38,935 nucleotides of DNA from a virus: IMG/VR virus record IMGVR_UViG_3300021963_000290, positions 1 through 38,935 of that record. The stretch is one strand, 5' to 3'. Made by a program: the position numbers and the translations under genes. Shown one piece after another: positions 4,831-28,834 of this stretch. Position 1 is the stretch's first letter, and every line of letters starts with the position of its first letter. The notes under the pieces were generated by a model. The model saw only the letters and a program-made list of their open reading frames with translations, made no database searches and was not told the origin of the DNA.

Positions 4831-4834
4831 ATTA

Positions 4835-4842
4835 TATTTATC
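4835..4842 (-). promoter_or_regulatory. late promoter box, leaderless type
   Basis: Complement reads GATAAATA; the ATG at 4830 follows after only 4 nt. With the T4 late spacing, transcription would begin at the start codon itself. Confidence 0.75.
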
Positions 4843-4855
4843 GGACTAATAGTAG

Positions 4856-4863
4856 CATAAATA
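4856..4863 (+). promoter_or_regulatory. late promoter box CATAAATA
   Basis: CATAAATA lies 13 bp from the minus-strand box at 4835-4842, making a compact divergent late control region. It drives the hydroxylase at 4895 through a 31-nt leader with AAGGAG (4880-4885). Confidence 0.7.
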
Positions 4864-4894
4864 GATATTGAATTTAGATAAGGAGATACACCCT

Positions 4895-5791
4895 ATGCGT
4901 CTTAAGCATTATTCGACCACCGCACCCAAAGTAGAACGCAGTTACATGGAAGCGTGGCGACAAGCCCGCGAGCTGCGCGAACAAACACATCCAGATGATC
5001 CCGATGGCGGTACCTTTACTTGGGAAGGTGATCCAGGAACTATTTTCTATACCAGTAGTCCCACAGCACACATCAAACGCTATCAACACAAGCCTATCAA
5101 GGCCTATTGGCTTAGAGAGGAAATCTCTATAGCCGATGAACTAATGGAGTTAGCACCAAAACTGGTTGAAGAATTTTTAGAGTATCATCACGAATTTATG
5201 GATCTAAACATTCCCACTAAACTAAAGCCCTATCGAAATCCTGAATTTGATACCAGTCTTGTTATGAGCGGTCTTGAATCTTGGATCACTGAGGGTGTTA
5301 AGTATACTTGGAAAGAAAAGAACATATTCAGTAATCGTTTTAACGATGACCCTATTATCTACAAAAACTTTCCCACAGCAGTGGCCCTGACTAAAAAATG
5401 GGGTGACGACTGCCCTATCAGCAGCTACAGTTGCATTGAACCCGGCAACGTAATCGAGCGTCACACTGGGGTTGAAAATCGTGACAACGAATTCATACGC
5501 ATACACATACCTTTGATCATACCCGAGGGAGACATATTCTTCGAGTGTGAAGGTGTAGAGATCGACTGGGAAGATCTATGGGCCTTCGATAATCAATTGA
5601 TTCACTCGGCTCATAACTACAGCAATGGTCGTAGACTAATCTACATGTTTGATGTACGCAGAGATAAAATTGGTCTACCCATAGGCGAAAAATATGATCC
5701 TGTGCGTCAGATCAAAGCCGAACCCTTTGTACGCGGCCGTTATCCAAAGGTACTACATCGTAAACAGAGAATCGCACTTGGCCTTGAATGA
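4895..5791 (+). CDS. aspartyl/asparaginyl beta-hydroxylase family protein, 298 aa
   Basis: The C-terminal part matches the Asp/Asn beta-hydroxylase fold. H190-T-G192 is followed by RIHIPL (R202), a GD-x-FFECEG turn, W-E-D-L-W-A-F-D-N-Q, H237 in LIHSAHN, and R246-R247. The HxG...H pattern, with Gly in place of the usual iron-binding Asp, is the known hallmark of human AspH, so the missing Asp is expected here. The N-terminal 150 residues are a phage-specific helical region. I chose the ATG at 4895 because AAGGAG sits 9 nt upstream; an upstream in-frame TTG at 4868 would place this SD inside the gene. The next gene overlaps it by 4 bp. The likely substrate is a peptide, perhaps a virion or host protein. 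Confidence 0.85.
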   Translation: MRLKHYSTTAPKVERSYMEAWRQARELREQTHPDDPDGGTFTWEGDPGTIFYTSSPTAHIKRYQHKPIKAYWLREEISIADELMELAPKLVEEFLEYHHEFMDLNIPTKLKPYRNPEFDTSLVMSGLESWITEGVKYTWKEKNIFSNRFNDDPIIYKNFPTAVALTKKWGDDCPISSYSCIEPGNVIERHTGVENRDNEFIRIHIPLIIPEGDIFFECEGVEIDWEDLWAFDNQLIHSAHNYSNGRRLIYMFDVRRDKIGLPIGEKYDPVRQIKAEPFVRGRYPKVLHRKQRIALGLE

Positions 5792-6318
5792 TCAGTGATT
5801 TTTATCTAGAAGTCAAACAGCCCAGCACTATTACCCTAGAGCTGGGCGAATTTATACAGAACCACAAGCATCTAAGTCATTGGACACCTTTGGCCTATGA
5901 CGAACCACACTGGGATGCTTGTCTTGAAGTACCAGAAGCAACACTGAATCTAGATCCTTTCTTAGCCTGGCTAAGACAACAGGCTCCCTATACTGGGGGC
6001 ATACTGCGTATGGCTCCTTGGACTAATTATGCTTGGCACAAGGACTATCAAAGAGGTTGTAGTCTTAATCTTTTACTCACTGATCCTGCAAAGAGCACTT
6101 GTCTTTTTAGACATAGTCCCAGCAAACAGATACACGGTATGTATCAACTGGTGCCTGTGGCCTATAGAACCACACACTATATGTGTCTTAACACTCAAGT
6201 GGAGCATAGTGTGTTTAATTGGGGTGAAGAGCGTTTTATTTTGACTCTGCACTTTCTAGCAGAGCTAGAAGATTTTAACTACAGAGATCTACAAAAAATT
6301 ATCTTGAAAAGGCGTTAA
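5788..6318 (+). CDS. putative 2OG-Fe(II) oxygenase, 176 aa
   Basis: ATGA overlap with the preceding hydroxylase indicates translational coupling. The candidate iron site is H84-K-D86 in the segment YAWHKDYQRGCSLNLLL and H140 in TQVEHSVFNWGEERF, with R149 in the 2OG-binding position. This is the same order as in small Fe(II)/2OG hydroxylases of marine phages. It is the fourth oxygenase-like gene in a row. The exact substrate cannot be told. It converges with the structural gene at 6315. Confidence 0.75.
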   Translation: MISDFYLEVKQPSTITLELGEFIQNHKHLSHWTPLAYDEPHWDACLEVPEATLNLDPFLAWLRQQAPYTGGILRMAPWTNYAWHKDYQRGCSLNLLLTDPAKSTCLFRHSPSKQIHGMYQLVPVAYRTTHYMCLNTQVEHSVFNWGEERFILTLHFLAELEDFNYRDLQKIILKRR

Positions 6319-6324
6319 ACGCCT
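6307..6324 (-). terminator. short terminator-like hairpin at convergent stops
   Basis: AGGCG (6310-6314) and CGCCT (6320-6324) pair around a 5-nt loop, placed over the stop codons of two convergent genes. On the minus strand the stem is followed by TTTTC, so it may end the structural gene's transcript. Confidence 0.4.
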
Positions 6325-6641
6325 ACATGAACCACTGTGACACTGATAGTGTCGTCGCAGTCGGCAGCAATAAAATCACCGTCATCTAAAACTAACTTGA
6401 CGCCATTACCGTTGACATCGCTTAGTTGCCACGTATCACCGGCTGCTAGGCTAACAGTTTTGGCGATCTGATACTGTGTGGCCACTGGAGTTGATGTGCC
6501 GCTGGGTGCTACATAAACGTTTAAGGTCACAGGGTTTGTCACAGTATTATTACAAAAATAAACCGCAGTTACAGCAGTAGAACCTGTACTGGTATAGATA
6601 GCAGCGCTGGGAGTAGGAACAGTAGTATTATGAATGGCCAT
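6315..6641 (-). CDS. small virion-type protein, 108 aa
   Basis: A Thr/Val/Ala-rich, all-beta protein without charged helices, resembling decoration or fibre-associated proteins of marine myoviruses. The middle reads as beta strands (TAVTAVYFCNN, PVTLNVYVAP) and the end is acidic (LDDGDFIAADCDD). The ATG follows a GATAAATA late box by 4 nt with no SD, so expression should be late and leaderless. I cannot name a T4 homologue; the structural role is inferred from composition and late promoter. Confidence 0.7.
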   Translation of the reverse strand: MAIHNTTVPTPSAAIYTSTGSTAVTAVYFCNNTVTNPVTLNVYVAPSGTSTPVATQYQIAKTVSLAAGDTWQLSDVNGNGVKLVLDDGDFIAADCDDTISVTVVHVGV

Positions 6642-6645
6642 AGTG

Positions 6646-6653
6646 TATTTATC
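6646..6653 (-). promoter_or_regulatory. late promoter box, leaderless type
   Basis: Complement reads GATAAATA and ends 4 nt before the ATG at 6641. Same geometry as at 4835, 23425, 25029 and 28827. Confidence 0.75.
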
Positions 6654-6658
6654 CAGTA

Positions 6659-8074: not shown

Positions 8075-8080
8075 CCTGCT

Positions 8081-8110
8081 ATTATACTATCTTTCAATTA
8101 AAAACTTTAA
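8081..8110 (-). promoter_or_regulatory. possible sigma70 -10 for the helicase
   Basis: Complement of 8081-8086 reads TATAAT, 6 nt before the helicase ATG. The best -35 is poor (TTAAAG with 18 bp), so this is a weak or activator-dependent promoter. If used, its transcript would be leaderless. Confidence 0.4.
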
Positions 8111-9584
8111 CATTATGGCGTGACTCAAAATTACGTGCATCCACATAATCATTTACCATGGGTAGTCCTTTGATATTTAAGCTGGTGTTCAATAGCATAG
8201 GACATCCTGTGCGCTTATACCAAAGTTCTAATAATAGTCTAAAGTGACTGCCGTCATCGGGAACTGTTTGTACACGACTGGTGCCGTCACGATGAATAAT
8301 AGCAGGATATAAATCAGGATTTCTACATTTAGCCACTACCTGCATGTATCTACTATCTCGCCAACCGTTGGGCATTTCAAAATAAACATCTACATATTCT
8401 TCTAAGATAGCAGGTGCAAACGGTCTAAATTCTTGTCGTTGTTTTATCTTGTTCACTCGATCTTTGATATCGTTTCCTCTAGGATCTGCAATAAGACTTC
8501 TGTTACCTAAGGCTCTTGGGCCAAACTCTGCACGACCTCTAGCAATACCACAGATTTGATTAGTTAATAGATATTCTACTATGTCATGATTACTTTTAAC
8601 TACTCCCATATCATAGCCAATATATGGAGTAAAATCCTTTGGATCTATACGCCACTGAGGGTTATGGGCCAATACTGTACCTATGGCACTGCCTGCATCA
8701 CCAGGGTTAGGCATTATCCAAGTTTTATCAAAATATCTATTAGTTATTCGATTGGCCGAGCAATTTAAAGCACAGCCACCCATAAACACTAGATTTTTAC
8801 TTGGCACTAGTTCGCTGGCTTGAAAAAGAATTCTATCTAAAATCATTTCGTATACTTGCTGTGTTGCCGCAGCAATGTCAAACGTATCTTTGATAGATAA
8901 TTCTGGATGCCAATCCATACAACCTCGATGTAGATCTCGTCTAAGTCTAAAAGGCTGTCTAAGATCATCATTGGGTAGTTCTACAATTTCTTTTAATAAT
9001 AGTCCTGTAAATTTTTCTGGATCACCATAGGCCGCCATGCCCATGAGAATATATTCTTCTTCGTTGGGTTTTAGATGGCAACGTTGTGTCATTGCACTGT
9101 AGAATAGGCCCACACTGTGGGGATAACTTATGGTGTACACACATTTAAGTTTTTCTCCTGTTGCACGCCAAACACTGTAAGTAGTAAATTCACCGATGGC
9201 ATCGAGTACTACTACACAAGCATCTTCAAACCCACTGGTAAAATAACCAGCGGCTGCATGACTATGATGATGTGTTGTATAGTGAATAGGGGCAATTATA
9301 CCTTTTCCTTTTAGGTATTTTTTTATATTGTTTTTAGATAAATTTAAACCTTGTCCAGCTTTGAGCTGTCTTAGAGTTTTAAGCCATGGATTTTCATACC
9401 AGAAAACTTGATCAGGCATTCCTCCCCAACGTTCTTTGAGGTAATTAATCATTGAGTTAGGTAGATCAGCATCATTTTTGATCTTACTAAAACGTTCGCT
9501 ATGACTGGCAAATACTAATTTTTCGTCAAAGAAAACCGCCACGGCCGCGTCGTGGCTATTTGCACTTATACCCCAGCTAATCAT
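8094..9584 (-). CDS. carbamoyltransferase, NodU/CmcH/TobZ family
   Basis: A two-domain O-carbamoyltransferase of 496 residues. The N-terminal Kae1-like domain has S10-H-D-A-A, the metal-binding HHHSHA run at 105-110, D128 in VVVLDAIGE and a GGCALN loop. The C-terminal YrdC-like domain has GRAEFGPRALGNRS and a LNTSLNIKG motif. Family members make carbamoyl-adenylate from carbamoyl phosphate and ATP and move the carbamoyl group to a hydroxyl. In phages the acceptor is usually unknown; a modified DNA base or a small molecule is possible. It is coupled to the 36-residue gene upstream (ATGA-type overlap) and sits between primase and helicase, which favours a DNA-related role. Confidence 0.93.
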   Translation of the reverse strand: MISWGISANSHDAAVAVFFDEKLVFASHSERFSKIKNDADLPNSMINYLKERWGGMPDQVFWYENPWLKTLRQLKAGQGLNLSKNNIKKYLKGKGIIAPIHYTTHHHSHAAAGYFTSGFEDACVVVLDAIGEFTTYSVWRATGEKLKCVYTISYPHSVGLFYSAMTQRCHLKPNEEEYILMGMAAYGDPEKFTGLLLKEIVELPNDDLRQPFRLRRDLHRGCMDWHPELSIKDTFDIAAATQQVYEMILDRILFQASELVPSKNLVFMGGCALNCSANRITNRYFDKTWIMPNPGDAGSAIGTVLAHNPQWRIDPKDFTPYIGYDMGVVKSNHDIVEYLLTNQICGIARGRAEFGPRALGNRSLIADPRGNDIKDRVNKIKQRQEFRPFAPAILEEYVDVYFEMPNGWRDSRYMQVVAKCRNPDLYPAIIHRDGTSRVQTVPDDGSHFRLLLELWYKRTGCPMLLNTSLNIKGLPMVNDYVDARNFESRHNVKVFN

Positions 9585-9691
9585 TTGTATATGAAAGGAT
9601 CACGGCGGCGTAATTCTTTCATCCTTCTTCTTAACATGATTTTTTCTTTTATCCAAGTATAAGGCCAAATTATAAATTTTATTAATTTCAT
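9581..9691 (-). CDS. very small conserved-type protein, 36 aa
   Basis: A 36-codon gene fills the gap between primase and carbamoyltransferase exactly. Its ATG overlaps the primase stop (ATGA) and its TGA overlaps the carbamoyltransferase ATG. The product begins MKLIKFIIWPYTWIKEK, a hydrophobic/aromatic helix with Trp9 and Trp13, followed by a very basic RRR...RRR stretch and ends DPFIYK. The layout, a short membrane-surface helix then a basic K/R-rich helix and DPFIY end, resembles tiny proteins I recall from other marine T4-like phages. Perfect coupling at both ends argues that it is real. Function unknown; membrane-peripheral anchoring is a guess. Confidence 0.75.
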   Translation of the reverse strand: MKLIKFIIWPYTWIKEKIMLRRRMKELRRRDPFIYK

Positions 9692-10662
9692 TTTTTAATC
9701 CATGTTTTTAATCTTAAACGAATTTTAAGCTCAGTATTTAATTTATTATTCACAATCATCCACAGCGTAGTGAGTTTTCCATAAAATCTAACTGCGTCGT
9801 TAACATCTTTAATTCCAGGTGCCCACTCAGGCATACTCACAGCCCAACCTAGTTTTATTGCCTGTTCTATAGTGTCTACCCCTGCATGATCTCTATCTGG
9901 AACTAGAATTACTTCTTTGTACAATTGATTGATTAAAAGATGTTGTCCTGCTTTTATTTCTGCACCTAGTAGTGCTATGCCATCTATGCTTATGGCATCA
10001 AACGGCCCTTCAGTTACGATAACATATTTTCTATCATCGGGCTGTCTGTCTAGATTAAACACATATCCAGGTTGTTGCTCACTAATATATTTTGGATTTC
10101 CATCTGTAATTTTACGGGCAGTGTAGCCTACTATTCGATTTTGATAGGTAAAAGGTATCAATAGCCTATTTTCAAATCCCGGAGACCAAAAGAAATGAGT
10201 GTCCATAGGATCGAATCCTCGATCTATTAGATATTCAATTACCTTGATAAAATTATCTTCATATTCTTTATCAGGCGGATTTGATATCCACTCTGCTAGG
10301 CTTTTCGATTCTTGAGGTAACGCCCTGGGTAAAAATGTAGGTACTAGATTTTCTATTTTTCCAGGACCGTCTTCTTTGAGCCTAAGTGCTTCAAAAGCTA
10401 GTTTAGTAATAGTATCATCTGATACGTTGAGTTTTTTCAGCAGAGTTTTCATTTTAACTGATAACGGTCTGCCTGGTTGCCAACTACATTTAAATTGACA
10501 ATTAAAACAATGATAGCTAAGTGCTTCTCCGGCATTAACAATAAATCCGCCACGCTGCCTACGATCATCACAACAAGGAGCATTGAAACTTATCCAGCCG
10601 CTAGGAGTATGTTTCCTTTTAGGAGGCAAATGTGCAAGAACAGTGTCAACGATTAGGCTCAT
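9688..10662 (-). CDS. 61: DNA primase, gp61 family
   Basis: A DnaG-type primase of 324 residues, close to T4 gp61 (342). An N-terminal zinc ribbon is visible (C30/C31 and H51-C52-x2-C55). The TOPRIM domain has the Glu motif EGPFDA at 218-223, PDRDHAG at 255-261 and KDVNDA at 285-290. It makes RNA primers for lagging-strand synthesis with gp41. A sigma70 promoter with ideal spacing ends 5 nt before the ATG, so the operon primase, 36-residue gene, carbamoyltransferase and helicase probably starts with a leaderless mRNA. Confidence 0.93.
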   Translation of the reverse strand: MSLIVDTVLAHLPPKRKHTPSGWISFNAPCCDDRRQRGGFIVNAGEALSYHCFNCQFKCSWQPGRPLSVKMKTLLKKLNVSDDTITKLAFEALRLKEDGPGKIENLVPTFLPRALPQESKSLAEWISNPPDKEYEDNFIKVIEYLIDRGFDPMDTHFFWSPGFENRLLIPFTYQNRIVGYTARKITDGNPKYISEQQPGYVFNLDRQPDDRKYVIVTEGPFDAISIDGIALLGAEIKAGQHLLINQLYKEVILVPDRDHAGVDTIEQAIKLGWAVSMPEWAPGIKDVNDAVRFYGKLTTLWMIVNNKLNTELKIRLRLKTWIKK

Positions 10663-10667: not shown

Positions 10668-10696
10668 AGTATAAACTATTAGACAGATATTGTCAA
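10668..10696 (-). promoter_or_regulatory. sigma70 promoter of the primase operon, leaderless type
   Basis: On the complement TTGACA (10691-10696), a 17-bp spacer and TATACT (10668-10673). Only 5 nt separate the -10 box from the ATG at 10662, so transcription should begin within the start codon's first bases. Confidence 0.88.
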
Positions 10697-11580: not shown

Positions 11581-11952
11581 GTAAAATTAAGAGAAAATGT
11601 AGAAGAACAACTACCCTTTGTTTCCGTACTTAACTACGGCGATGAAGAGTACGTTGGGATAATAATAAATCAAGATCAATACGTAACCAGTTTTTACGAT
11701 CTAAACAGCATTAGAACAGCAGAAGAAAAAACTGCGTTTTTAGAGCTAGGAGAAACTTGGTGGTGGGAATCAAACAGGCAAGTTCCAATAAGTATTTTTC
11801 TTAGAATACCTATAGAGCCCTATAGATATGCAATTAAAACTTTTAATTCAAAAGATGTTAGAATTGTACTAGGCCCAGTAGTGAATCTGATGAATCTAAC
11901 AGTAAAAAGAGTAAAGCGAAAAAGTGTACAATTAGTTAGAAAAATTAATTAA
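11578..11952 (+). CDS. conserved phage hypothetical protein, 124 aa
   Basis: The product starts MVKLRENVEEQLPFV and contains a compact central segment LGETWWWESNRQVPISIFL, then KTFNSKDVRIVLGP and a basic C-terminus (KRVKRKS). I recall this W-W-E-S-N-R-x-x-P-I and GP layout from other marine T4-like phages, with no known function. Upstream in-frame codons to 11377 lie opposite the divergent gene and are not needed. No SD is visible before this ATG. The stop overlaps the DnaE-like gene's stop by 4 bp, so the two genes converge. Confidence 0.75.
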   Translation: MVKLRENVEEQLPFVSVLNYGDEEYVGIIINQDQYVTSFYDLNSIRTAEEKTAFLELGETWWWESNRQVPISIFLRIPIEPYRYAIKTFNSKDVRIVLGPVVNLMNLTVKRVKRKSVQLVRKIN

Positions 11953-12530
11953 CTATAACCGTAACTAATCGATTCACATATTAAATTCATCTGTACTACA
12001 ATCACATGTGCATAGGCCACAGCATGTGATTTCTTAAAGAAGTAATCATCATTCTCTGGTTTGATCCAGACTTCTTTCATCACTTCCGTCCATGTCTTCC
12101 CAATCAAATATCTCTTCGCTGGTCTGATTATGGCTAAAACTGCGGCTAATTGCTCTATATTCTTCGGCTTCATAGCCCGCAATATATCTCCATGTCCGTT
12201 TAGATGGAACAGTAGATTGATAAATTCGTCTTGTTCTAGTAGGTCCCATAGAGGTTCAGTCTCCATTAATCTAGTTAAATGAGCTTCATCTTTTATGCCT
12301 TTGTATGCGCTCACATTCAAAAAATCTATTTTAAAAAAGCCTCTTTCTTCTGCCAATTTATAGTCTACAGTACTTATTCCTGTAATTGGATTATACGGTA
12401 TTGAAGTAAAATACACCCCAGTATTATGTTTCTTTACAAGCCCGTCTTTGTCAGTTATAGATGCTGAAACATGCTCTAATATATTTAACGCAACGTCTCT
12501 ATCTAAAAAATCAAGATCAATATCTGGCAT
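11949..12530 (-). CDS. miniature DnaE (family C polymerase)-like protein, 193 aa
   Basis: Several segments line up with bacterial DNA polymerase III alpha in the right order. PDIDLDF (2-8) matches PDFDVDF with catalytic D401/D403 in E. coli. HNTGVYF (35-41) matches the HxxGVV-type strand. K67-I-D69-FLNV matches KFDFLG with K553/D555. LFHLNGHGDILRAMKP and AAVLAIIRPAK match the fingers VFQLES and ALYRPG regions. FFKKSHAVAYA (164-174) matches FNKSHSAAYA. All three catalytic Asp positions survive, yet the protein is about one sixth of a normal DnaE, with 64 residues rather than about 150 between the Asp sites. A polymerase, regulator or structural relic are all possible. It is last in the replication block. 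Confidence 0.75.
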   Translation of the reverse strand: MPDIDLDFLDRDVALNILEHVSASITDKDGLVKKHNTGVYFTSIPYNPITGISTVDYKLAEERGFFKIDFLNVSAYKGIKDEAHLTRLMETEPLWDLLEQDEFINLLFHLNGHGDILRAMKPKNIEQLAAVLAIIRPAKRYLIGKTWTEVMKEVWIKPENDDYFFKKSHAVAYAHVIVVQMNLICESISYGYS

Positions 12531-14765: not shown

Positions 14766-16232
14766 TTATTTTTGCCAGTCTACTTTTTCAATCGTAAACG
14801 GATATTTGGCTTCCTTATAAAATTTCTTCCTCTCTGTAAGATGCTTTTTCGCATATTTACAGGTTGATGTAATGTCCCAGATCTGAACGAAGTCCTTGTC
14901 TTCGGCTTTTCGAATACCTCGGCCAATGCTTTGTATAACGCGGACAAAGCTCTTTCCGGGCTCAAGAAGAACCAGATTAAAAATCCTAGGGATATTAATA
15001 CCCACAGCGGCCACACCGTAAGTCGCCACAATAATCTTGTTATCACTTGTTTTAATTTCATCGTATTCTTCTTTTCTATCTTTGGTCTTAACTTCTCCGC
15101 TGATAAAAACAGCATCTGCTAACTCGTTAACTAGAAATCTTCCACTATCGATTCGATTAACTAATACTAGAGTGTTGCCACTTTCTGCAATAGTTTTAAT
15201 CAATTTGCTTATAAATTCCATCCTGTGATCGTCTGTAACAAGATACTTGTTTTCTTCTGCATAACTTCTAAATTCTTGCACATCGACTAGCTGTGCCACG
15301 TTTACGTGACAATTAGAAAGCACTCCCCTTTCTTGTAACTCATGGGCACTGATTCCACCTATAACTGGTCCAATGCTGGCAAATATACTTTCGTATTCAA
15401 ATGCTTCTTTAGGAACTGTTCCAGTTAATCCCCATCGTATAGGAGCATTAGATAAGTTTTGTGTTAGTAAATTTTTTAGAACTTCGGCTTTAGCCATGTG
15501 TACTTCATCTACAATCACTGTTTTAACTCCGTCAAGAAATTCAGCTAGTGTAAGTATTTCGTGTTCAAGATTTTTACTTTTCTTGTCTAAGATGTTTAAA
15601 CTTTGCCAAGTACAGATTGTATGGGTTTTTCCTAAATCTTTACGATCACCGTAGTAAACACCTACATCTAATCCGACGTTGACAAAGTCTTCTTCTGTTT
15701 GTTCTACAAGACTTTTATTCGGTACAATTACAATTGATCTTCCAATTTTTTCACAGAGATGTGCTAGGGTAGCAGTGGTAATAGTTTTACCTGCGCCTGT
15801 GGCTATCTGCTGTAGAGCTTGTGGATTTCCAAGGAATAAATTAATAGCTTCTACTTGATAGTCTCTAAGTAAAATAGGTTGACCTTCTTGGGGATGACCT
15901 TTAGGCCAAACTTTACCTTGATCAGACCAATATGTTTCTGTAACCGCATTGAATGATAAATCATGTTTTGTTCTTTGGTCATCAATGTCACTAATTTCAA
16001 TGCCAAGATTATTTAAAATTTCAAGAATTTTTTCCATTTGATTTAGGTAGCCATTACCTCCTAATCCAAATAGACTTACCATTCCGTCCCAACGTCCTAG
16101 TTTGTAAGCAGGATGATATCTCGCATAAGGAATTTCATACTTAAATGTATTAGCTAGTTTACGGCGTGCCTCAACAGCCAACCCTTCTAGTTTGATATTT
16201 ACTTCATCTTTAATAATTAATTTACAGGTCAT
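14766..16232 (-). CDS. uvsW: UvsW-type DNA/RNA helicase
   Basis: A superfamily-2 helicase of 488 residues, near T4 UvsW (503). The N-terminal domain includes YHPAYKLGRWDGMV. Motif I is ATGAGKT (144-150), motif II VDEVHMAK (241-248), motif III-like GLTGTVP, and motif VI QSIGRGIRK. UvsW remodels stalled forks and R-loops and helps switch T4 from origin-dependent to recombination-dependent replication. It overlaps the preceding 390-residue gene by 4 bp, so its expression follows the sigma70 promoter at 17408. Confidence 0.95.
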   Translation of the reverse strand: MTCKLIIKDEVNIKLEGLAVEARRKLANTFKYEIPYARYHPAYKLGRWDGMVSLFGLGGNGYLNQMEKILEILNNLGIEISDIDDQRTKHDLSFNAVTETYWSDQGKVWPKGHPQEGQPILLRDYQVEAINLFLGNPQALQQIATGAGKTITTATLAHLCEKIGRSIVIVPNKSLVEQTEEDFVNVGLDVGVYYGDRKDLGKTHTICTWQSLNILDKKSKNLEHEILTLAEFLDGVKTVIVDEVHMAKAEVLKNLLTQNLSNAPIRWGLTGTVPKEAFEYESIFASIGPVIGGISAHELQERGVLSNCHVNVAQLVDVQEFRSYAEENKYLVTDDHRMEFISKLIKTIAESGNTLVLVNRIDSGRFLVNELADAVFISGEVKTKDRKEEYDEIKTSDNKIIVATYGVAAVGINIPRIFNLVLLEPGKSFVRVIQSIGRGIRKAEDKDFVQIWDITSTCKYAKKHLTERKKFYKEAKYPFTIEKVDWQK

Positions 16233-17407: not shown

Positions 17408-17436
17408 ATTTTAACACATTACAATTAAAAAGTCAA
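17408..17436 (-). promoter_or_regulatory. sigma70 promoter of the uvsW operon, leaderless type
   Basis: On the complement TTGACT (17431-17436), a 17-bp spacer and TAAAAT (17408-17413). With 6 nt between -10 and ATG, the expected +1 is the A of the start codon at 17401. No SD is present. Confidence 0.82.
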
Positions 17437-20368: not shown

Positions 20369-23300
20369 TTACTTATGACGTACCAAACTGATCAATCGAC
20401 TTAGTTCATCATTGGCGAATGTAACTGATTCCGATGCAGGTTTGCCAGTTAACTTATTCCAAACGCCCTTGACCGCATCTAAGTTCTTTTGGCCAGCAGC
20501 ATCTCTTCTAGAAACTGCTGCTTGTGCGGCTGCATCACCTGGATAAGGTTGACGTGGGTTCAATTGAGACCAAGCTAGTTCCAATTCGGATCTTGATTTA
20601 ATCGGAGTACCGTCACCTGATGTTACTGCACCACCACTACCGGATTTTACAGTTGGTTGTACTGTAGATAAGGGTGCCGGTGCAGCAGGTGCCGCTGGTT
20701 GAGCTGCTTGGCCACCTGCTGGAGCTGCCGGTTTAGCACCCGCCATAGGACTTCCAGACCCAGCAGTATCTCCAGGCTGTGCATTAGATGCTACTGTTGA
20801 AAAGTTTCCACGATACCCACTTGATGCTGGTGCAGCCGCTGGTGCAGCCGCTGTTTGTTGAGGTTGTAATGCTGGACTACCGGCGGCAATTCCTACTTTG
20901 GCTTTTTCAACATCTGCTTGCGCTGTAGGTGCTTGACTGCCTACAGGAGGTGCATCTGCTGTAGTTGATTGTTCTGGAGCATTCGGATCTGCTGCTGGTT
21001 CTTTACCTTGTGCTTTTGCTAGGTCCGCGGCATTCATTGGAGTGCCACCACCGCTAATTGGTGTTTCTGGTGCGGCTGCTGGTGCGGCTGCTGGTGCGGC
21101 TGCTGGTGTTGGTTGGGCTGCTGCGCCTGCTGGTTTAGTTTTTACCTTACCAGCTTGTGCGCCGGCAATTGCTCCAGCACCGCCATCGATATTTGTTAAT
21201 AGACGGGGATCTCTTGCCATAGTAGGTCTTTGATTAGGAGTTCCAACTGGCGCATTGCCCTTAGCCGGTGTTACACCTATTGCCTGTGCTGCTGGACTAA
21301 TGCCAAATTGTGCGGCTGCTGCCTGTGTTGCTGGACCCATGATACCGTCGGCTTTAATCTTAGCACCTTTGGCGATTAACTCTTGCTGTAATTTCATTAC
21401 GCCTGCATCAGGTGCTTCTGACAACATAATTGATTCGTAGGTTACACTTTCAAATGCCATGTTATCTGGGCGCATGCCTGCTAGCTTTCTCATGCGGTGC
21501 GTTTCACTAATTTGTGACAGTGTCTCAATTACACGATGTGCAATCGGTGTAGCCTCTTCACCGAATTTCTTTTCAGTGGCAATTAATACACCTGTTTCAC
21601 CTTTGGGGAAAGTCCCATGCTCTTTATCGTAAAATGATTTTATAAATTCTACAATTTCTTTTGGATGAGGTTTAAGAGTTATGCCAGCACGTTCTGCTAG
21701 TTCAGATAATGACATTTTTTGTCCGCCTATTTCTATTGTATCTTCGCTTTTCATACCAGCTTTACGAGCTTTCTCAATAGCTGCTACTAATCCCTGTTTG
21801 GCTGAATGCTGAGCACGTTTTTTGACAACATTACCAAATTTATCTTTTTTATCACCTACTGGTCTGCCGCCATCAAATGGAGCATCGTCTTGGCTTTCTG
21901 CAGCCACTGGCTGTTCTGCTGTAGGTGCCGGTTCAGCTGCTGGTGCTGCTGGCAGTTGTCCTGCTGTAGGAGCTGGTGCTTCTGGTGCAGGAGTTGGTGC
22001 ACCAGCTTCTTGTCCTGCAGATGGAAATGTCACTTGATCTACTAGCTCAGGATGTTCTGTTTCTAGATATCCTTTAATAATTGGTGCTAGTTCAGTTTCT
22101 GATGGAAGGTCGCCTAACACCTTCATAAATTTAGGGTCAGTGATTATGTCTTTGAGACTCATTGTAGCATTAGTTCCGTCTACACCTGCCGTAGGGTTGG
22201 TAGACAAAAATTGATTAAGTTTTTCTAATGCTGCGGATTTAACTGCTTCATCACTACTGGCAATACCGTCATCTTCTGACAATAGACTTTCAAGGGTATA
22301 TTCAAACTCGGCAAATTCTTTAATGTCTTTTTCATCATCGTGGTCGTGATCGTCACATTCGCAATCGTCAACTGGTTTATGACAATCATCGCACTTTTCT
22401 TCTGAGTCTTCACCTAATAAGTCATCTGGTGTTAATTCTTTAACATTAGATCCTTCGCCAACTAGTTTATAGATGTAAGGAAACACATCTTTTAGTGCTT
22501 CGTTAAAATTACGTATAGTTAATTTGTCAACCCAATCATTTACGATATCTTCTGGGATTTGTTCTGCTTCTGATTGACTAAACGATTCTGCAAATGATTT
22601 ATAATGAGATGCGTTTTGTAACTGATGTATTTCTTTTTTCACTTGATCAATGCGTTCAATGACTTTACCAGTCACAGTTCCCATTGCTTCGCTAATTTGT
22701 TCTTGACGGCTAACATAACCTTTAAAGAATCGTAATTTTGATAATTCTTCTGATAAACCAATAACATGTTCACCTATTGCATCATACGGTGTTCCGCCGT
22801 GTGCTACATGTTGAGCAAGAGCTCTTGCACCGTTAAGGTGTTTGTATGGGTACTTAAATCTTTCACCTTGTGCATTTTCAATAAAAATGCTTTCAATGTG
22901 TAGTGTTCTTCCAGCTGGGTTGTCGTAATTTACATTCTGTGAATGTTTTACAATAATTTTTGCATCGCCCATATCTTGGAAACTGGTTCTGTTAGTTCCC
23001 CATAATTTACTTTCGGTCATTTGGCCTTCTCCGCTATTTGTAGCTAAAAAATTATAATCTCTCTTATCTAGATTAGATTTTACTAGATCTCTAGTTTCGT
23101 AATTTAACAATCTTCTTCTTGCAAATTCACGTAACGATTTCAAAAAAGCATACCATTCGTTAATAACAGGTTGAGGTTGTCCTTCTGCTATGTCATTACT
23201 GTACATAACTGTTAGTCCTTTTTTCTCACTTAGTTTGATACTAACTGATCCTAGACTAACTCCTTCTTTAACATAATCAAATTCAAAGAATCTAGCGTTT

Positions 23301-23419
23301 TTTAGATCTTCTTCGTTTTCGATGACAGCGCCACTTTTGTCGCCCATTTCAATCTTTGGAAATCTTGTACGAATTTTTCCAAAGAGTTCTTCTGCAATAT
23401 TATCTAGATTTGCGTTCAT
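20369..23419 (-). CDS. large virion structural protein, 1016 aa
   Basis: The N-terminal 330 residues form a globular helical domain with a distinctive NYETRDLVKSNLDKRDYNF segment, as in a large uncharacterised virion protein next to the terminase in marine T4-like phages. Residues 343-360 are a Cys/His/Asp-rich patch (C343, C346, C353, C355, H358, H360) that may bind metal. Pro/Ala linkers cover about 470-510 and 765-910. Residues 674-706 (MKLQQELIAKG...DGIMGPATQAAAAQFG) match a peptidoglycan-binding type 1 repeat, suggesting cell-wall contact during infection. A late box gives an ATG after 5 nt with no SD; the box overlaps the terminase stop. Confidence 0.8.
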   Translation of the reverse strand: MNANLDNIAEELFGKIRTRFPKIEMGDKSGAVIENEEDLKNARFFEFDYVKEGVSLGSVSIKLSEKKGLTVMYSNDIAEGQPQPVINEWYAFLKSLREFARRRLLNYETRDLVKSNLDKRDYNFLATNSGEGQMTESKLWGTNRTSFQDMGDAKIIVKHSQNVNYDNPAGRTLHIESIFIENAQGERFKYPYKHLNGARALAQHVAHGGTPYDAIGEHVIGLSEELSKLRFFKGYVSRQEQISEAMGTVTGKVIERIDQVKKEIHQLQNASHYKSFAESFSQSEAEQIPEDIVNDWVDKLTIRNFNEALKDVFPYIYKLVGEGSNVKELTPDDLLGEDSEEKCDDCHKPVDDCECDDHDHDDEKDIKEFAEFEYTLESLLSEDDGIASSDEAVKSAALEKLNQFLSTNPTAGVDGTNATMSLKDIITDPKFMKVLGDLPSETELAPIIKGYLETEHPELVDQVTFPSAGQEAGAPTPAPEAPAPTAGQLPAAPAAEPAPTAEQPVAAESQDDAPFDGGRPVGDKKDKFGNVVKKRAQHSAKQGLVAAIEKARKAGMKSEDTIEIGGQKMSLSELAERAGITLKPHPKEIVEFIKSFYDKEHGTFPKGETGVLIATEKKFGEEATPIAHRVIETLSQISETHRMRKLAGMRPDNMAFESVTYESIMLSEAPDAGVMKLQQELIAKGAKIKADGIMGPATQAAAAQFGISPAAQAIGVTPAKGNAPVGTPNQRPTMARDPRLLTNIDGGAGAIAGAQAGKVKTKPAGAAAQPTPAAAPAAAPAAAPETPISGGGTPMNAADLAKAQGKEPAADPNAPEQSTTADAPPVGSQAPTAQADVEKAKVGIAAGSPALQPQQTAAAPAAAPASSGYRGNFSTVASNAQPGDTAGSGSPMAGAKPAAPAGGQAAQPAAPAAPAPLSTVQPTVKSGSGGAVTSGDGTPIKSRSELELAWSQLNPRQPYPGDAAAQAAVSRRDAAGQKNLDAVKGVWNKLTGKPASESVTFANDELSRLISLVRHK
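21069..21104 (-). repeat. 12-bp tandem repeat, three copies
   Basis: GGTGCGGCTGCT is repeated three times without change inside the 1016-residue gene and encodes Ala/Pro-rich linker (A-A-P repeats). Copy number may vary between isolates by slippage. Confidence 0.9.
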
Positions 23420-23424
23420 AGTAC

Positions 23425-23432
23425 TATTTATC
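23425..23432 (-). promoter_or_regulatory. late promoter box inside the terminase stop, leaderless type
   Basis: Complement reads GATAAATA; its TAA is the terminase large subunit stop codon (23428-23430). The ATG of the next gene (23419) follows after 5 nt. Confidence 0.78.
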
Positions 23433-25023
23433 CTAAGCCAGAAGAAACAAATATCGGCATTGGAGGTTCAAAATCTTCTTCATCAAACTCTCCTCTGCTG
23501 CTGAGAGTTTCAAAAACTCTTGGATCCCAATCTGCTAATACCTGACTCATTCGTACCGCTAATAGTAGCGAGGACACAAGATCGTCATACTCACCTGTTT
23601 TTGCCTTAAAACTAACTCCGCTAGCTATGTAGGCTTTGAGTTCTGTAATCAGCGGTTTGCTGTGCATTTTAAATGTATCTGCTTCAATTAAGTGTTTAAG
23701 TCTAGCACAAGCAGCAATTTTGCTTTTATGGGTAGTGTTAAATCCTTTTCTAAACTTACGTACATGTCCTTTCCGTATTGGCTCTGATACAAATAATCCA
23801 GGAAATTGGTCTTCACCTATGTCTTTTATTACTACTAGGCCTGCTTCACCGATGTTGTTATTCTCTAAAGACCAATAGATATCATTTGAATTATCAGATC
23901 CTACAGTACCTTCTAACCATTTTAAAATATCTCTTAGTATTCTTATTTGTCCTTGGATAGGTGTTTCATTATGATGCCATTCTGCTACTTGTTCAAAACT
24001 AGGAAGTTCTATTACTTCTATAGCAGCATAATTTCCCCCTGTGCCTAGGCTTGGATCTAAACTTACAAGATAAATGTTACCTGATTTAGGCTGCTTGTAA
24101 ATCCTAGTTTGACCCATTCGTGATATAGGTTCCTTACCTTCTAGTTCACTTAATTTAATACTATTGACCAACGTTTCATCGTAGACTAAGAATTCGCATC
24201 CATATTCACGACGGAAACGTTCTTCGCCAATGCGCCCACGTTCTTGTGTTGCCCATGTTTCATCTCTGTCAGGATGTTCATTCCAGTGACAAGTATATGC
24301 AAAAAATCCATTAACGCCTAATGGGGTTTCATTTCCGTACTCGTCAAATCTTTTATTAGCATCTTTCCATATAAGAGCAAATTCGTCTTCATCACTGTTA
24401 GGAGTTGAAGTAATAATTGCTCGACCACCAGTGGCCAGTGTAGGAGATATTGAAGTCCAGAATTCTGTAGCAATGTTAGGTTGTACGAATGCAAACTCGT
24501 CACAGTAGAGTAGTGAAATACTCATACCGCGACCAGTATTTCCAGTGGTTGTAGCACTGACTATACGACTGCCGTTGTCAAATTCTATACTGCCTTTGTT
24601 GTAGTTAGTAGCCCCAGCCCTAATATGATCAGGACAATCTTCGTATGCATAACGTATACGTTGCATGATTTCTTGTGCGCCAGTATATTTGTGTGCAGCC
24701 ACAAGAACAGTTTGATCAGGATGAAACATAGCATACCACAATAGATAACCGGCAGCACAGGTAGTTTTACCGCTTTGCCGAGGTAACATGTTAATGTTAA
24801 ATCTATTATTGTGATAACTTTCTAGTAGTCTTTCTTGATAACCAAAAGGTTCAAATAACAGTTTTCCTTTTACAGGATGTTGTATGTAAAAGAAATTTTT
24901 AACAAAGTATTCATATCCTGTAACTGGATCTGCACAGGCAAGGACTTCTTGAATCTGTTGTTCAGTAAATCTTTCTTGTTTATGTGCCTTTTTAATTAAG
25001 ACACCGTCGAGGCTTTTTCCCAT
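23428..25023 (-). CDS. 17: terminase large subunit, gp17
   Basis: A packaging motor ATPase/nuclease of 531 residues from the ATG used here. Walker A-type PRQSGKTT is at 81-88, Walker B LLYCDEF around 171-177, and a coupling motif TSTPN follows. The nuclease domain shows SLDPSLGTGG (first Asp) and the EYDDLVSSLLL end. An ATG ten codons upstream (25053) gives MSLFFSLNN but lies inside the terminator hairpin of the gene before and upstream of the late box, so I reject it. T4 gp17 is 610 residues. It cuts concatemers and pumps DNA into the prohead with the small terminase encoded upstream. Confidence 0.95.
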   Translation of the reverse strand: MGKSLDGVLIKKAHKQERFTEQQIQEVLACADPVTGYEYFVKNFFYIQHPVKGKLLFEPFGYQERLLESYHNNRFNINMLPRQSGKTTCAAGYLLWYAMFHPDQTVLVAAHKYTGAQEIMQRIRYAYEDCPDHIRAGATNYNKGSIEFDNGSRIVSATTTGNTGRGMSISLLYCDEFAFVQPNIATEFWTSISPTLATGGRAIITSTPNSDEDEFALIWKDANKRFDEYGNETPLGVNGFFAYTCHWNEHPDRDETWATQERGRIGEERFRREYGCEFLVYDETLVNSIKLSELEGKEPISRMGQTRIYKQPKSGNIYLVSLDPSLGTGGNYAAIEVIELPSFEQVAEWHHNETPIQGQIRILRDILKWLEGTVGSDNSNDIYWSLENNNIGEAGLVVIKDIGEDQFPGLFVSEPIRKGHVRKFRKGFNTTHKSKIAACARLKHLIEADTFKMHSKPLITELKAYIASGVSFKAKTGEYDDLVSSLLLAVRMSQVLADWDPRVFETLSSRGEFDEEDFEPPMPIFVSSGLG

Positions 25024-25028
25024 ATGAT

Positions 25029-25036
25029 TATTTAAT
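25029..25036 (-). promoter_or_regulatory. late promoter box for terminase, leaderless type
   Basis: Complement reads ATTAAATA, one step off the common box, directly after a terminator U tract. The ATG at 25023 follows after 5 nt and no SD exists. Confidence 0.6.
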
Positions 25037-25037
25037 G

Positions 25038-25065
25038 AAAAAAATAGGCTCACCGGAGCCTATTT
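25038..25065 (-). terminator. intrinsic terminator before terminase
   Basis: AAATAGGCTC (25042-25051) and GAGCCTATTT (25056-25065) form a perfect 10-bp stem with a 4-nt loop. On the minus strand it is followed by seven U (25044-25038). It ends the operon running from 28821 to 25084. Confidence 0.92.
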
Positions 25066-25083
25066 GAGTAACTTATAGTCTAA

Positions 25084-25830
25084 TTATCTACTTTTAATTT
25101 CTTGATATAAGTTGTGTAGATTTCTTTTAATGCCCTCAGAAGTAACTGCGTAAGGGTTGCCTCCGCCGTTGACTTTTGGACGCTCGTCTCCTTTGCTGGC
25201 TAGATCGTCGCCTGTGGCTGTAATAGTGTCTATTGAACCATACATTTCGTCTGGTTCGTTAGCATAGGATTCTTCTTCCATGTCGTTACCAAAAATAATT
25301 CCGTCTTCGTCACCTTCTGGTTCGTCATGTGGATGATCCATACTCTTAATATCTAATTCTAGATCGTCAGCATCTTGCGGTTCATTGCCCGAAGTATCAC
25401 CGATGTCTTTTAGGATATTTAATAGATCACGAATGCCACCTGGTCCTTGTCCGTTCATACTAAGATTCATGCTAACATTGTCGGGTTGTTTTGGTGAACT
25501 CATGGGCATGTCTCCTCCACATTCTTCTAACTCACCGTCTGGGATGGTTGGAGCAGGAGTATTAAGTTTGTTCATGGTATAGCGTTTTTCCATTTCTGGA
25601 TTTTTGCCAGCCAGGCCGGTAGTAAGATCGGTTACTACATTTTTTAATTCAGGGCTAGTGTAAGTTTTAATGCCTATACTATCATTGCCTCCGCCGATCT
25701 CTTTATTCAACATATCGCCTTTGGCTCTGTAATCTGCATACTTGTCATAGGCAGCGTTATCACCTGCATTGCCTGCCGGTCCTACCTCATCAAGATTTTT
25801 AATTGTTTTATATAATTCTGTAAAGTTCAT
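25084..25830 (-). CDS. hypothetical late protein, 248 aa
   Basis: A strongly acidic, Gly/Asp/Pro-rich protein, likely extended or disordered, with Met-rich patches (SMNLSMNGQGPGG) and a short helix at each end (MNFTELYKTIKNLDEVG; KRNLHNLYQEIKS). The shared motif at both ends, a small L-Y-x-x-I-K helix, may bind a partner. It starts on the stop of the previous gene (TAATG) and is followed by a strong terminator. Position between the two terminase genes suggests a packaging or capsid-assembly role, but no family is recognised. Confidence 0.72.
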   Translation of the reverse strand: MNFTELYKTIKNLDEVGPAGNAGDNAAYDKYADYRAKGDMLNKEIGGGNDSIGIKTYTSPELKNVVTDLTTGLAGKNPEMEKRYTMNKLNTPAPTIPDGELEECGGDMPMSSPKQPDNVSMNLSMNGQGPGGIRDLLNILKDIGDTSGNEPQDADDLELDIKSMDHPHDEPEGDEDGIIFGNDMEEESYANEPDEMYGSIDTITATGDDLASKGDERPKVNGGGNPYAVTSEGIKRNLHNLYQEIKSR

Positions 25831-26444
25831 TATTTTTTTCCTTGTCTAGGATCAGGATTCTTAACGGCGCCCAGTGGACTTTTTGTACTGTCTTTAGGAG
25901 TTTCAAAATCTGGATCTGTTTTTTCAACTTTTTCTTTAGATTCTGCCTTAGTGATTTCTGCTCTACGATCAGCATTAATTTTGTTAAGCTCTTTTAAGAA
26001 ACTAGTAACGTGTTCTTGTCCTACTAGTTTTTGACCTTCTGCATTTGTTTCGTAATCTTTTTCTAATAAAGATTCGCCATCACCTGGTGCTTTCATATGG
26101 GCATGATTCATTTCTGCCTCAGCTTCTTCCATAGGGTTGCGAACCTTAATATAAGATGGATTCATTTTTAATTTTTCAACTAGATCATTCCTTAGAACAA
26201 AACTAGTAGTAGGATAATTACATTCTACTTCAAATGTATGAACTTCTGTATTTTTAAGTTCAGGAAAATCAATTGGACTTTCTTGAATAGGTGTTCTTTT
26301 AGCAGCACTTACTTTTGTGCAGTCATATTTTGCTAGAGCTTCTTTAACTCGAGCTACTAGATCTTTTTGTATATCGCCAGCAATTTTTACTCTAAAAGGA
26401 TAAGTTTTTTTGCTTTCGATTAGGTATTCTTTGAATGAAGTCAT
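25830..26444 (-). CDS. hypothetical late protein, 204 aa
   Basis: The N-terminal 80 residues look like a small alpha/beta domain (YPFRVKIAGDIQKDLVARVKEAL and later EVHTFEVECNYP). The rest is charged, helical, and ends in a Lys/Pro/Asp-rich tail (NPDPRQGKK). Late box AATAAATA lies 18 nt upstream and overlaps the end of the small terminase gene. The stop is shared with the next start. The function is unknown; similar genes accompany terminase in marine T4-like phages as far as I recall. Confidence 0.72.
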   Translation of the reverse strand: MTSFKEYLIESKKTYPFRVKIAGDIQKDLVARVKEALAKYDCTKVSAAKRTPIQESPIDFPELKNTEVHTFEVECNYPTTSFVLRNDLVEKLKMNPSYIKVRNPMEEAEAEMNHAHMKAPGDGESLLEKDYETNAEGQKLVGQEHVTSFLKELNKINADRRAEITKAESKEKVEKTDPDFETPKDSTKSPLGAVKNPDPRQGKK

Positions 26445-26461
26445 AGTAAATTCCGTATACG

Positions 26462-26947
26462 TTATTTATTCATATTTTTAAGTTTTTCCAAGAGGCTATT
26501 GCGATCCGAAACTATATACCCGTCGCCTGGAATAGTAAGTCCGCCGTCACCGCCTGCTGCATCTTGATCAATTTTTTGTTTTTTAAGTTGAAGCTCTATC
26601 ATCTTAAGTTTTTTGTCAATTTTGGCTGCCTTAGCATCTATGGCATTCTTTAACATTGTACCTGCAACTTCAAAAATACGCCCGCTGTATCTTGCTTCAA
26701 CATTCATGCCTAAATCCATTAGATCATCATAGGCATCTGTTGCACGTTGGGCCAGCGCATCAAATTCTGCATCACTAGCATCGCCTAGACCCTTTACTTG
26801 AGGTAGCGCAGCTGATATTTTATCAAATTCTTCTATATCACGAAGAAATGGTTGTACTTGAGGAACAACTTCGTTTTTCTGTTCCTCAGCTTTGATTATC
26901 TTTTTATTTTCAGGGAGATTTAAAATCTCTTCAAGTTTTTTAGTCAT
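26462..26947 (-). CDS. 16: terminase small subunit, gp16-like
   Basis: A helical 161-residue protein (T4 gp16 164). The central segment YDDLMDLGMNVEARYSGRIFEVAGTMLKNAIDAK, read as two antiparallel helices, and the KKLKMIELQLKKQK coiled region match small terminases of marine T4-like phages. It forms a ring that recognises DNA and stimulates gp17. It begins 7 nt after the gp4 stop and shares its operon. Confidence 0.75.
   Translation of the reverse strand: MTKKLEEILNLPENKKIIKAEEQKNEVVPQVQPFLRDIEEFDKISAALPQVKGLGDASDAEFDALAQRATDAYDDLMDLGMNVEARYSGRIFEVAGTMLKNAIDAKAAKIDKKLKMIELQLKKQKIDQDAAGGDGGLTIPGDGYIVSDRNSLLEKLKNMNK
26463..26470 (-). promoter_or_regulatory. possible late promoter box AATAAATA
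   Basis: Complement reads AATAAATA and covers the last codons and stop of the small terminase gene, 18 nt before the ATG at 26444. It differs at the first position from the common box. Confidence 0.5.
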
Positions 26948-26954
26948 ACTTTAC

Positions 26955-27389
26955 TTATCTTGAGCCGTTATGAAATAGTTCATTTTCTGTAATTATTCTA
27001 AAACGTATGCCCTGTTGTCTACAATAAGCATTTGCTGCTGACCATTTGGCTTGATTTTGTATGTATTGTGCCTGCCGTACTTTACTACGTCCTACATCTT
27101 CCAACACTGCTTGATTTTGAGGTTTTATTTCAATTAGCTCTACATTAATTTTATTTTTAGCATCGACATACTGTATAAAAAAATCTGGAACATAAATTGA
27201 ATGACGTCCAGTTAAAGGATTTTTATAAGGAATTTTAATAGCTTCACATGCCCACTGATGAACACTTTCGTTAGTATCACAGAAACGCATAAAGTGCCAT
27301 TCCCAACTGCTGCGATATGTAGGATTTTTAAGTCCTATATATTTTTGGGGATTTTTTGGTGTAAATTTTCCTTGAGCAAAACGACTCAT
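26955..27389 (-). CDS. 4: head completion protein gp4
   Basis: A 144-residue protein of the gp4 (50) head-completion family (T4 150). Visible are the basic N-terminus (FAQGKFTPKNPQKYIG), the segment YRSSWEWHFMRFCD, and VPDFFIQY, then a helix VELIEIKPQ. The E...PDF...E-I-K-P order matches TnsA/PD-(D/E)xK nuclease-like folds, to which gp4 has been linked. It seals the filled head before neck and tail addition. ATGA overlap with the upstream gene. Confidence 0.9.
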   Translation of the reverse strand: MSRFAQGKFTPKNPQKYIGLKNPTYRSSWEWHFMRFCDTNESVHQWACEAIKIPYKNPLTGRHSIYVPDFFIQYVDAKNKINVELIEIKPQNQAVLEDVGRSKVRQAQYIQNQAKWSAANAYCRQQGIRFRIITENELFHNGSR

Positions 27390-27754
27390 ACTAAAATATT
27401 TCTGCTCTCAAATGTGTCTTCTACCGGTGCAATCTTATAACCTAAAAAAGAAGTGCTCTCTCTGTAGTTATTAAGGACTTCTGCAACAACTTGGCTTAGT
27501 TGTAGGTCTGTTAAACCTTTAAGCGTATCTAATAGCTGGAAAACGCTAACACCGTCATTTTTTGCTTGGTTTAAAAGAATAATAGTAACACTGCGACTTG
27601 AATCTTGATCAAATCCTCTCTTTAAAAAGAAAGTTACAGTAGCATCAATTTCCATAACAGGAAAGGTAACTTCATGTAAGAAGAATTTATCAAAGAAATT
27701 TTTTACTTCAGTTGAACTATCTTTAGAGTCAGATTGTGGAAGATTATTGAGCAT
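27386..27754 (-). CDS. hypothetical late protein, 122 aa
   Basis: A mixed alpha/beta protein of 122 residues (FPVMEIDATVTFFLKRGFD, LLDTLKGLTDLQLSQVVAEVL). It follows the tube-like protein by 2 bp and overlaps gp4 by 4 bp, so it belongs to the same late operon. Its neighbours are tail and head completion genes, which suggests a virion or assembly role. I do not recognise a T4 counterpart. Confidence 0.75.
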   Translation of the reverse strand: MLNNLPQSDSKDSSTEVKNFFDKFFLHEVTFPVMEIDATVTFFLKRGFDQDSSRSVTIILLNQAKNDGVSVFQLLDTLKGLTDLQLSQVVAEVLNNYRESTSFLGYKIAPVEDTFESRNILV

Positions 27755-27756
27755 AA

Positions 27757-28821
27757 TTAGAATCTAGGTTTAGCCTGTACATTTGTAGATTTTACTTGAC
27801 TTTGGGGAAATGCAATATCATCGATACCGCTTACACCAGGCCTGGCCACTGAATTTAGTGATTTTGTTATAATATTTTTACCTTCTTCTCTAACACCAGC
27901 ATTGGTAAGTCTTTTACTATTTTGATATGTATTGATAGTTTTAATTGCTGTTGATAAAAAGTTAGCGGGATTTTCAAATGCTTCACCACTAAAAATATCA
28001 CCTAAAACTTCTGAGGCACCAGCAATGACACCGCCTTCACCGAATAAGCTAGCGGTGCCGCCACCTGCTATACTTAATGGGCTCGGACTTAGGTCATAAT
28101 GTTCTAAGGCAAATCCTTCTGGGTTACCTCTTTGAACACGGCCAGCACCGTAATAAACTGCTTCGTAGGCCAGTGTCATAGTATTTTCATGGGGACTGCT
28201 ATTTGCGTAATCTAACTGTTCGTGATTCCAATTAGTGATTACAGGATTAACTAGAGTATAACTAACAAATGTATGACGTGCCATTTGATAGATAGTTATT
28301 TTTCTAAAAAACGGAATGCTACTATCATTATCAAAGCCATATTTGCCTCTGATAAATTCACTACCTCTCATACTGGTCCTATAATAAGATCCGGGTATTG
28401 ACTTAGCAGTTCTACTATCGGCAAAATAATAACCGTAGTAGTTTTGCCATAATTGATTAACTAGACCTAGATTATCGTCATTAAATTTTACTTGTACAGG
28501 CTGATAGTCAATTTTATTATGAACAATCTTTTTTCTATTATATTGATTTATTGTTTCGGTGGTTATATTAAAATTAGGCAGATTAATACTCTTAACCATG
28601 AGGTTAATTTCATTTCGGTGCCTTTGATCTAACGCAGTATTTTTAAGAGCATCAGTATTAATACTGAAACTAACATGATACAGATATTTTTGTTTAGGTG
28701 CAAGCCTAAATGTATCATCCGTAAACGTGCGGGCGGCATGTTGGAAGTCACCCATGTTACCTTTAGGATGCGTTACACCATAAAGAGTATTATTTAAAAA
28801 ACCGTCAAATGCGTTGGACAT
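27757..28821 (-). CDS. tail-tube-fold baseplate protein (gp54/gp48-like), 354 aa
   Basis: Residues about 40-230 resemble the tail-tube fold shared by T4 gp19, gp48 and gp54: LMVKSINLPNFNITTETINQYNRKK, PVQVKFNDDN, then a Tyr-rich WQNYYGYYF and a long strand QMARHTFVSYTLVNPVI. The C-terminal 110 residues are a Gly/Ala/Ser-rich extension with low complexity. It could be the tube-initiating baseplate protein; which of gp48 or gp54 is not clear. The ATG is 5 nt after a GATAAATA box without SD. Confidence 0.7.
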   Translation of the reverse strand: MSNAFDGFLNNTLYGVTHPKGNMGDFQHAARTFTDDTFRLAPKQKYLYHVSFSINTDALKNTALDQRHRNEINLMVKSINLPNFNITTETINQYNRKKIVHNKIDYQPVQVKFNDDNLGLVNQLWQNYYGYYFADSRTAKSIPGSYYRTSMRGSEFIRGKYGFDNDSSIPFFRKITIYQMARHTFVSYTLVNPVITNWNHEQLDYANSSPHENTMTLAYEAVYYGAGRVQRGNPEGFALEHYDLSPSPLSIAGGGTASLFGEGGVIAGASEVLGDIFSGEAFENPANFLSTAIKTINTYQNSKRLTNAGVREEGKNIITKSLNSVARPGVSGIDDIAFPQSQVKSTNVQAKPRF

Positions 28822-28826
28822 GCTAT

Positions 28827-28834
28827 TATTTATC
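28827..28834 (-). promoter_or_regulatory. late promoter box, leaderless type
   Basis: Complement reads GATAAATA; the ATG at 28821 follows after 5 nt. It lies just below the gp19 terminator, so this is a new transcription unit. Confidence 0.78.

Follow-up and report, generated by a model that had tools for sequence, protein, structure and literature searches.

Close-spaced T4-type late promoters and predicted leaderless mRNAs in giant T4-related phages

The 38,935-nt DNA fragment that makes up the whole of IMG/VR virus record IMGVR_UViG_3300021963_000290 (hereafter the window) carries late genes in which the 8-bp box of a T4-type late promoter ends only 4–7 nt before the ATG, an arrangement conserved gene by gene among its relatives, and such gp55-type promoters very probably yield leaderless mRNAs (0–3 nt) for a fixed set of genes. 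Leaderless late mRNAs from a T4-type box had been proposed in an initial annotation of the window, and comparative sequence evidence strongly supports the proposal: conserved spacing, lack of a Shine–Dalgarno (SD) motif, a pyrimidine at −1 with A at +1, and a gp55 homologue in long relatives. The carrier group is a large, mostly uncultured set of giant T4-related phages. The window encodes T4-type head, tail and replication proteins (terL, tail tube, tail sheath, UvsX, a gp32-like single-stranded DNA-binding protein, a DnaB-like helicase and others); its nearest relatives are uncultured IMG/VR contigs, and the nearest named phage by terL is Pseudomonas phage PA5oct (58% identity), which shares the gene order of the terL neighbourhood. 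A DNA-level search of the window against phage records returned almost no matches. The window is a genome fragment and the relative contigs are partial; a host was sought and none is claimed, as only two contigs of one marine metagenome-assembled genome (MAG) labelled Rickettsiales turned up, which may be mis-binned phage.

Direct reading of the window confirmed each box spacing given in the initial annotation. On the minus strand, GATAAATA lies 4 nt before the ATG of two open reading frames (ORFs) predicted to be leaderless, ORF 4195–4830 (211 aa; box 4835–4842) and ORF 6315–6641 (108 aa; box 6646–6653), and 5 nt before the ATG of two further predicted leaderless genes: a large virion structural protein gene downstream of terL (20369–23419, phrog_13484; box 23425–23432, overlapping the terL stop codon) and the second tail tube protein gene (27757–28821, phrog_13438/4542; box 28827–28834). 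The terminase large subunit gene terL (23428–25023, minus strand, phrog_36964), likewise predicted to be leaderless, has a weaker box, ATTAAATA at 25029–25036, 5 nt before ATG 25023, the orthologous sites being mostly GTAAATA. On the plus strand, GATAAATA at 34833–34840 precedes by 7 nt the ATG of a head/neck structural gene (34848–36239, phrog_11591), labelled gp14 in the initial annotation and predicted to be near-leaderless. The heptamer ATAAATA occurs exactly 11 times in the window, and five copies sit 4–7 nt before an ATG followed by at least 100 open codons, a placement with a background of 0.94% of window positions (binomial P = 3e-8); among 2,810 window 7-mers with 8–14 occurrences, ATAAATA alone reaches three or more such positions, all others reaching at most two. 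A plain one-mismatch scan for TATAAATA showed no overall enrichment in the window (87 sites versus 84 expected), so that the signal lies in the exact box and its position, not in its count.

Short spacing proved to be conserved, bimodal and gene-specific across two sets of relatives, each of 80 loci, fetched with the window's terL and with PA5oct terL, respectively. In the first set plus the window, 121 copies of GATAAATA were found, 111 of them no more than 40 nt from the ATG of an ORF (92 at 4–7 nt and 18 at 16–21 nt), while control 8-mers in the same loci gave no comparable spacing peak; two peaks appeared again in the second set, and among 850 distinct box-to-ORF pairs pooled, 391 fell at 4–7 nt, 43 at 8–14 nt and 288 at 15–26 nt. 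The box stands within 8 nt of the start of the gene after terL in 79 of 80 loci, and is close-spaced at terL in 73 of 80, at the second tail tube gene in 54 of 54 orthologs, and in the 34848 family in 13 of 13 orthologs checked one by one, a direct scan of that family extending this to 44 of 45 distinct upstream regions. Four orthologs of ORF 6315–6641 (81% identical) all keep TATAAATACACTATG, and two homologues at about 30% identity are SD-led. A marine MAG contig with terL at 61% identity also has close-spaced sites, one of them before terL, and eight contigs of the clade gave 36 matches to the pattern versus 8 in a backward-read control. The spacing class, close or leadered, is fixed per gene. 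A terL tree built from 104 dereplicated sequences, 78 of which have the close-spaced box at the gene after terL while all named phages are leadered or lack the box, indicates repeated gain or loss of close spacing, the trait requiring 14 changes, versus 23 with shuffled labels.

The mRNA 5′ ends predicted from this layout fall at or next to the start codon. In published numbering the T4 late box occupies positions −13 to −6 (PMC2988020), which with a 5-nt spacer places the A of the ATG at +1. Among 174 distinct upstream regions from four families with close spacing, 8 have an SD core, four of the eight belonging to terL, a family with box-less, SD-bearing orthologs; in four families led by an SD, the core is present in 110 of 110. 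Mean anti-SD energies are near 0 and about −7 kcal/mol, respectively. The base before the ATG is a pyrimidine in 98% of genes with a 5-nt spacer (n = 198), compared with 52% of 1,503 SD-led ATGs; where the spacer is 7 nt, a pyrimidine–purine (YR) step occupies box +4/+5 in 82%, predicting ACU-AUG as the 5′ end. Such a pattern is what the start preference of RNA polymerase, and not translation, would impose, and appears to fit a start at box +5/+6. In 148 of 186 cases no possible in-frame start lies upstream of the ATG, and the codons that follow it encode conserved residues with synonymous changes, MPRLSL opening all 13 members of the 34848 family. Exceptional orthologs compensate, loss or shift of the close box going with acquisition of an SD: in one member of the 34848 family (L287) the start has moved to a later GTG with the SD TTAGGAG, and in one terL ortholog (L076) a displaced box is accompanied by a leader and an SD. 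The gp55 late sigma factor family (phrog_234) was matched (E about 1e-25) in each of the four related contigs that are at least 131 kb long.

Other late genes use the same box with a conventional leader and serve as internal controls. Leaders with SDs had been reported at 2481, 3560, 4895, 32927 and 34801, and all are present, at lengths of 18–31 nt: TATAAATA (2453–2460, plus strand) lies 20 nt before ATG 2481 with SD AAGGA; GATAAATA (3579–3586, minus strand) 18 nt before ATG 3560 with SD GGGGAGG; ACTAAATA (32959–32966, minus strand) 31 nt before the tail sheath ATG 32927 with SD AAGGAG; and GGTAAATA (34825–34832, minus strand) serves a head–tail adaptor-like gene (34031–34801, minus strand, phrog_211) through a 23-nt SD leader. 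The class is retained among orthologs of the tail sheath gene (leadered with an SD in 30 of 33), of the first tail tube gene (box and SD leader in 23 of 47, the remainder having an SD without a box) and of the 34801 gene (16 of 16 leadered with an SD). The GGTAAATA box stands back to back with the 34848 box; in 45 distinct relatives of this intergenic region the divergent box is kept in 43 and an SD-led partner on that side in 41, so that a single region would give one leaderless and one leadered gene. The earlier suggestion that the terminase and large structural genes form the leaderless class captures part of the rule, but the tail sheath gene, the largest structural gene, has a leader, and the gene for an HNH endonuclease (33026–33361 in the window) has the box at 4–5 nt, the leaderless type, in most relatives (L010, L022, L035, L054 and others), having lost it in the window and in L012, where AGGGCAGG stands before the ATG. 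The 34848 gene, held to resemble the others, does so in its close spacing, but its mRNA probably begins with a 3-nt ACU leader, as the YR step at box +4/+5 suggests, and not at the start codon.

At terL, terminator, promoter and start codon are fused within about 45 nt. An intrinsic terminator (10-bp hairpin and T run; 25038–25065, minus strand; fold −12.8 kcal/mol, z −3.2) abuts the box, and its hairpin is exact in 70 of 79 orthologs and present by eye in imperfect form in four more; the five orthologs without it also lack the box and have the SD-bearing AAAGGAAGATA before the ATG. A terminator in this position speaks against translation of terL from messages begun further upstream. The start of the longer terL ORF, GTG 25053, falls within the hairpin, an example of how gene finders that require an SD can misplace such starts. 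The annotated start of PA5oct terL (L086:28847) also lies within a terminator-like hairpin, with the conserved N-terminus beginning at a later ATG, and is likely misannotated.

The mechanism proposed is that host RNA polymerase, equipped with the gp55-like sigma factor of the phage, would recognise NNTAAATA and begin transcription at the first purine following a pyrimidine, 5 or 6 nt beyond the box; this purine would be the A of the ATG with a 4- or 5-nt spacer, and the A of ACT-ATG with a 7-nt spacer. At terL, the terminator just before the box would halt upstream transcripts, and a new leaderless transcript would begin. Leaderless mRNAs are translated through recognition of the 5′-terminal AUG, and the SD-less mRNAs of the clade would take this route, presumably on 70S ribosomes. 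The set so expressed would comprise terL and the structural gene that follows it, the second tail tube gene and the 34848 neck/head gene, with the HNH endonuclease and a small protein in relatives, while the remaining late genes on the same box retain an SD leader of 15–26 nt.

Several observations weigh against this interpretation. No match to the gp45 clamp model (PF02916) was found in clade contigs or in PA5oct, although the T4 clamp was recovered, and the clade protein may be too divergent or encoded on missing parts; no relatives of ORF 4195–4830 were found; and ATG-only starts, considered as evidence for a leaderless mode (272 of 280 starts at 4–7 nt spacing are ATG), were set aside as not discriminating, the SD-led set being likewise all ATG in the same scan. 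Read-through transcripts could also cover several genes, above all the one that follows terL. Were such longer mRNAs the main templates, translation would depend on coupling to the preceding gene or on reinitiation behind it, and the box next to the start would be a minor promoter; the start of the gene after terL, 8 nt beyond a terL stop codon that itself lies inside the box, and the position of gene 6315–6641 close behind its upstream gene would suit this explanation, which is nevertheless improbable, as the terminator parts terL from its upstream gene in most orthologs, the 34848 family is divergent from its neighbour and has no upstream gene to couple to, and coupling predicts neither the 4–5-nt box spacing nor the −1 pyrimidine.

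There is still less to recommend a scheme in which the close-spaced boxes act from upstream starts and the A/U-rich leaders recruit ribosomal protein S1, giving leadered but SD-independent mRNAs: the upstream regions are indeed A/T-rich and SD-free, yet they hold no conserved second box, neighbours with the same box and a normal leader have an SD, and the initiator pattern is located at the ATG. That the true starts lie downstream with their own SDs, the box-to-ATG spacing being coincidental, is scarcely credible. Homologues of this kind were sought and the expectation mostly failed, in-frame downstream starts with an SD core occurring in 11 of 63 terL and 10 of 48 tail tube orthologs but in 0 of 62 and 0 of 13 in the other two families; the residues just after the ATG are moreover conserved with synonymous change, and the spacing is kept across deep divergence.

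Several purposes may be envisaged for predicted leaderless late mRNAs: compactness, since the box can sit in the end of the previous gene; stoichiometry set through independent promoters; or a switch at translation. The benefits put forward in the initial annotation, favoured 70S initiation and escape from anti-SD control, would be further possibilities. A more specific proposal, which must be considered unlikely, is that these genes are controlled together as a regulon at the level of translation, with a late change in the initiation machinery (for example, in IF2/IF3 balance, S1 or ribosome state) favouring 5′-AUG mRNAs; if true, packaging, tube and neck proteins would be subject to a second switch, acting on translation, in addition to gp55. 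Of phage-encoded translation factors that might favour leaderless mRNAs, IF3 was not detected at all, and S21 was detected in PA5oct but in none of the clade contigs, which are partial.

T4-type late transcription is a textbook system whose mRNAs are assumed to be leadered. T4 late promoters, dependent on gp55, gp33 and gp45 at TATAAATA, share with the clade the 8-bp box, the class of genes served and gp55, a homologue of which is found in long relatives; in T4, however, none of 30 copies of NATAAATA near an ORF lies 3–7 nt before the ATG (0 of 18 in Syn9), and the gene after terL has a 28-nt leader, unlike in the clade. The RAK2-like and PA5oct-like jumbo phages belong to the same superfamily and share synteny and box with the clade, but PA5oct, CBB, Phosso, Atu_ph07 and Vibrio 2.275 have a leader at the gene after terL, and pattern counts in CBB, Atu_ph07, Phosso, Vibrio 2.275 and SCTP-2 gave no clear excess over the backward-read control. 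PA5oct has two close-spaced sites among 39, one of which (TATAAATACGTGTATG) precedes the gene for gp262, a structural protein detected by mass spectrometry. Published accounts of the CBB late promoters (an ATAAATA motif of the NATAAATA type; PMC5259590), of NATAAATA-type late promoters in cyanophages (PMC2984593) and of post-transcriptional control in T4 (PMC3014915) describe no leaderless starts, and a passing comment in the AR9 paper calls leaderless transcripts frequent in phages, the AR9 leaders themselves measuring 26–491 nt (PMC5312081). A search of open-licence papers found no description joining a T4-type late promoter with gene-specific leaderless starts, and the novelty of the class is provisional. 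Among phages, lambda cI has a leaderless mRNA. Leaderless mRNAs are also described in bacteria, as in mycobacteria (PMC4633059). Both resemble the clade in having the ATG at the transcript start (here predicted) and no SD, whereas the clade class is conserved, gene-specific, derived from a phage late promoter and found beside leadered genes on the same box. A very common environmental lineage would, gene by gene, have brought its late promoter up to the start codon and dispensed with the SD in a stable set of genes, and the clade offers hundreds of natural comparisons of leaderless and leadered genes under one promoter type.

Leaderless starts were at one stage thought to be confined to the late box, an idea dropped after sigma70-like cases were found at two minus-strand genes. 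The primase gene (9688–10662) has TTGACA-17-TATACT at 10668–10696, 5 nt before ATG 10662, with a like layout in relatives G001 and G003; gene 16229–17401, which has no family match, has TTGACT-17-TAAAAT at 17408–17436, 6 nt before ATG 17401, and its orthologs show a −10-like hexamer about 5–8 nt before the ATG and no SD. Sigma70-like promoters 5–8 nt before the ATG point to leaderless starts as a wider habit of these phages, including early-type genes.

Some further features of the window and its relatives may be recorded. Several close-spaced ORFs of G003 and PA5oct (L112:581, L112:2946, and minus-strand ORFs of L112 and L159) have a common N-terminal M(K/R)IxEIIxE and are otherwise different, possibly reflecting a shared targeting or propeptide signal. 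The window product of 25830–26444 begins MTSFKEYLIE, which we take to resemble the T4 capsid-targeting peptides of internal head proteins. A 193-aa ORF (11949–12530) weakly matches the DNA polymerase III alpha subunit (E 2e-4, far under the family cut-off), and a carbamoyltransferase gene together with an Asp/Asn beta-hydroxylase-like gene (8094–9584 and 4895–5791) may point to DNA or surface modification.

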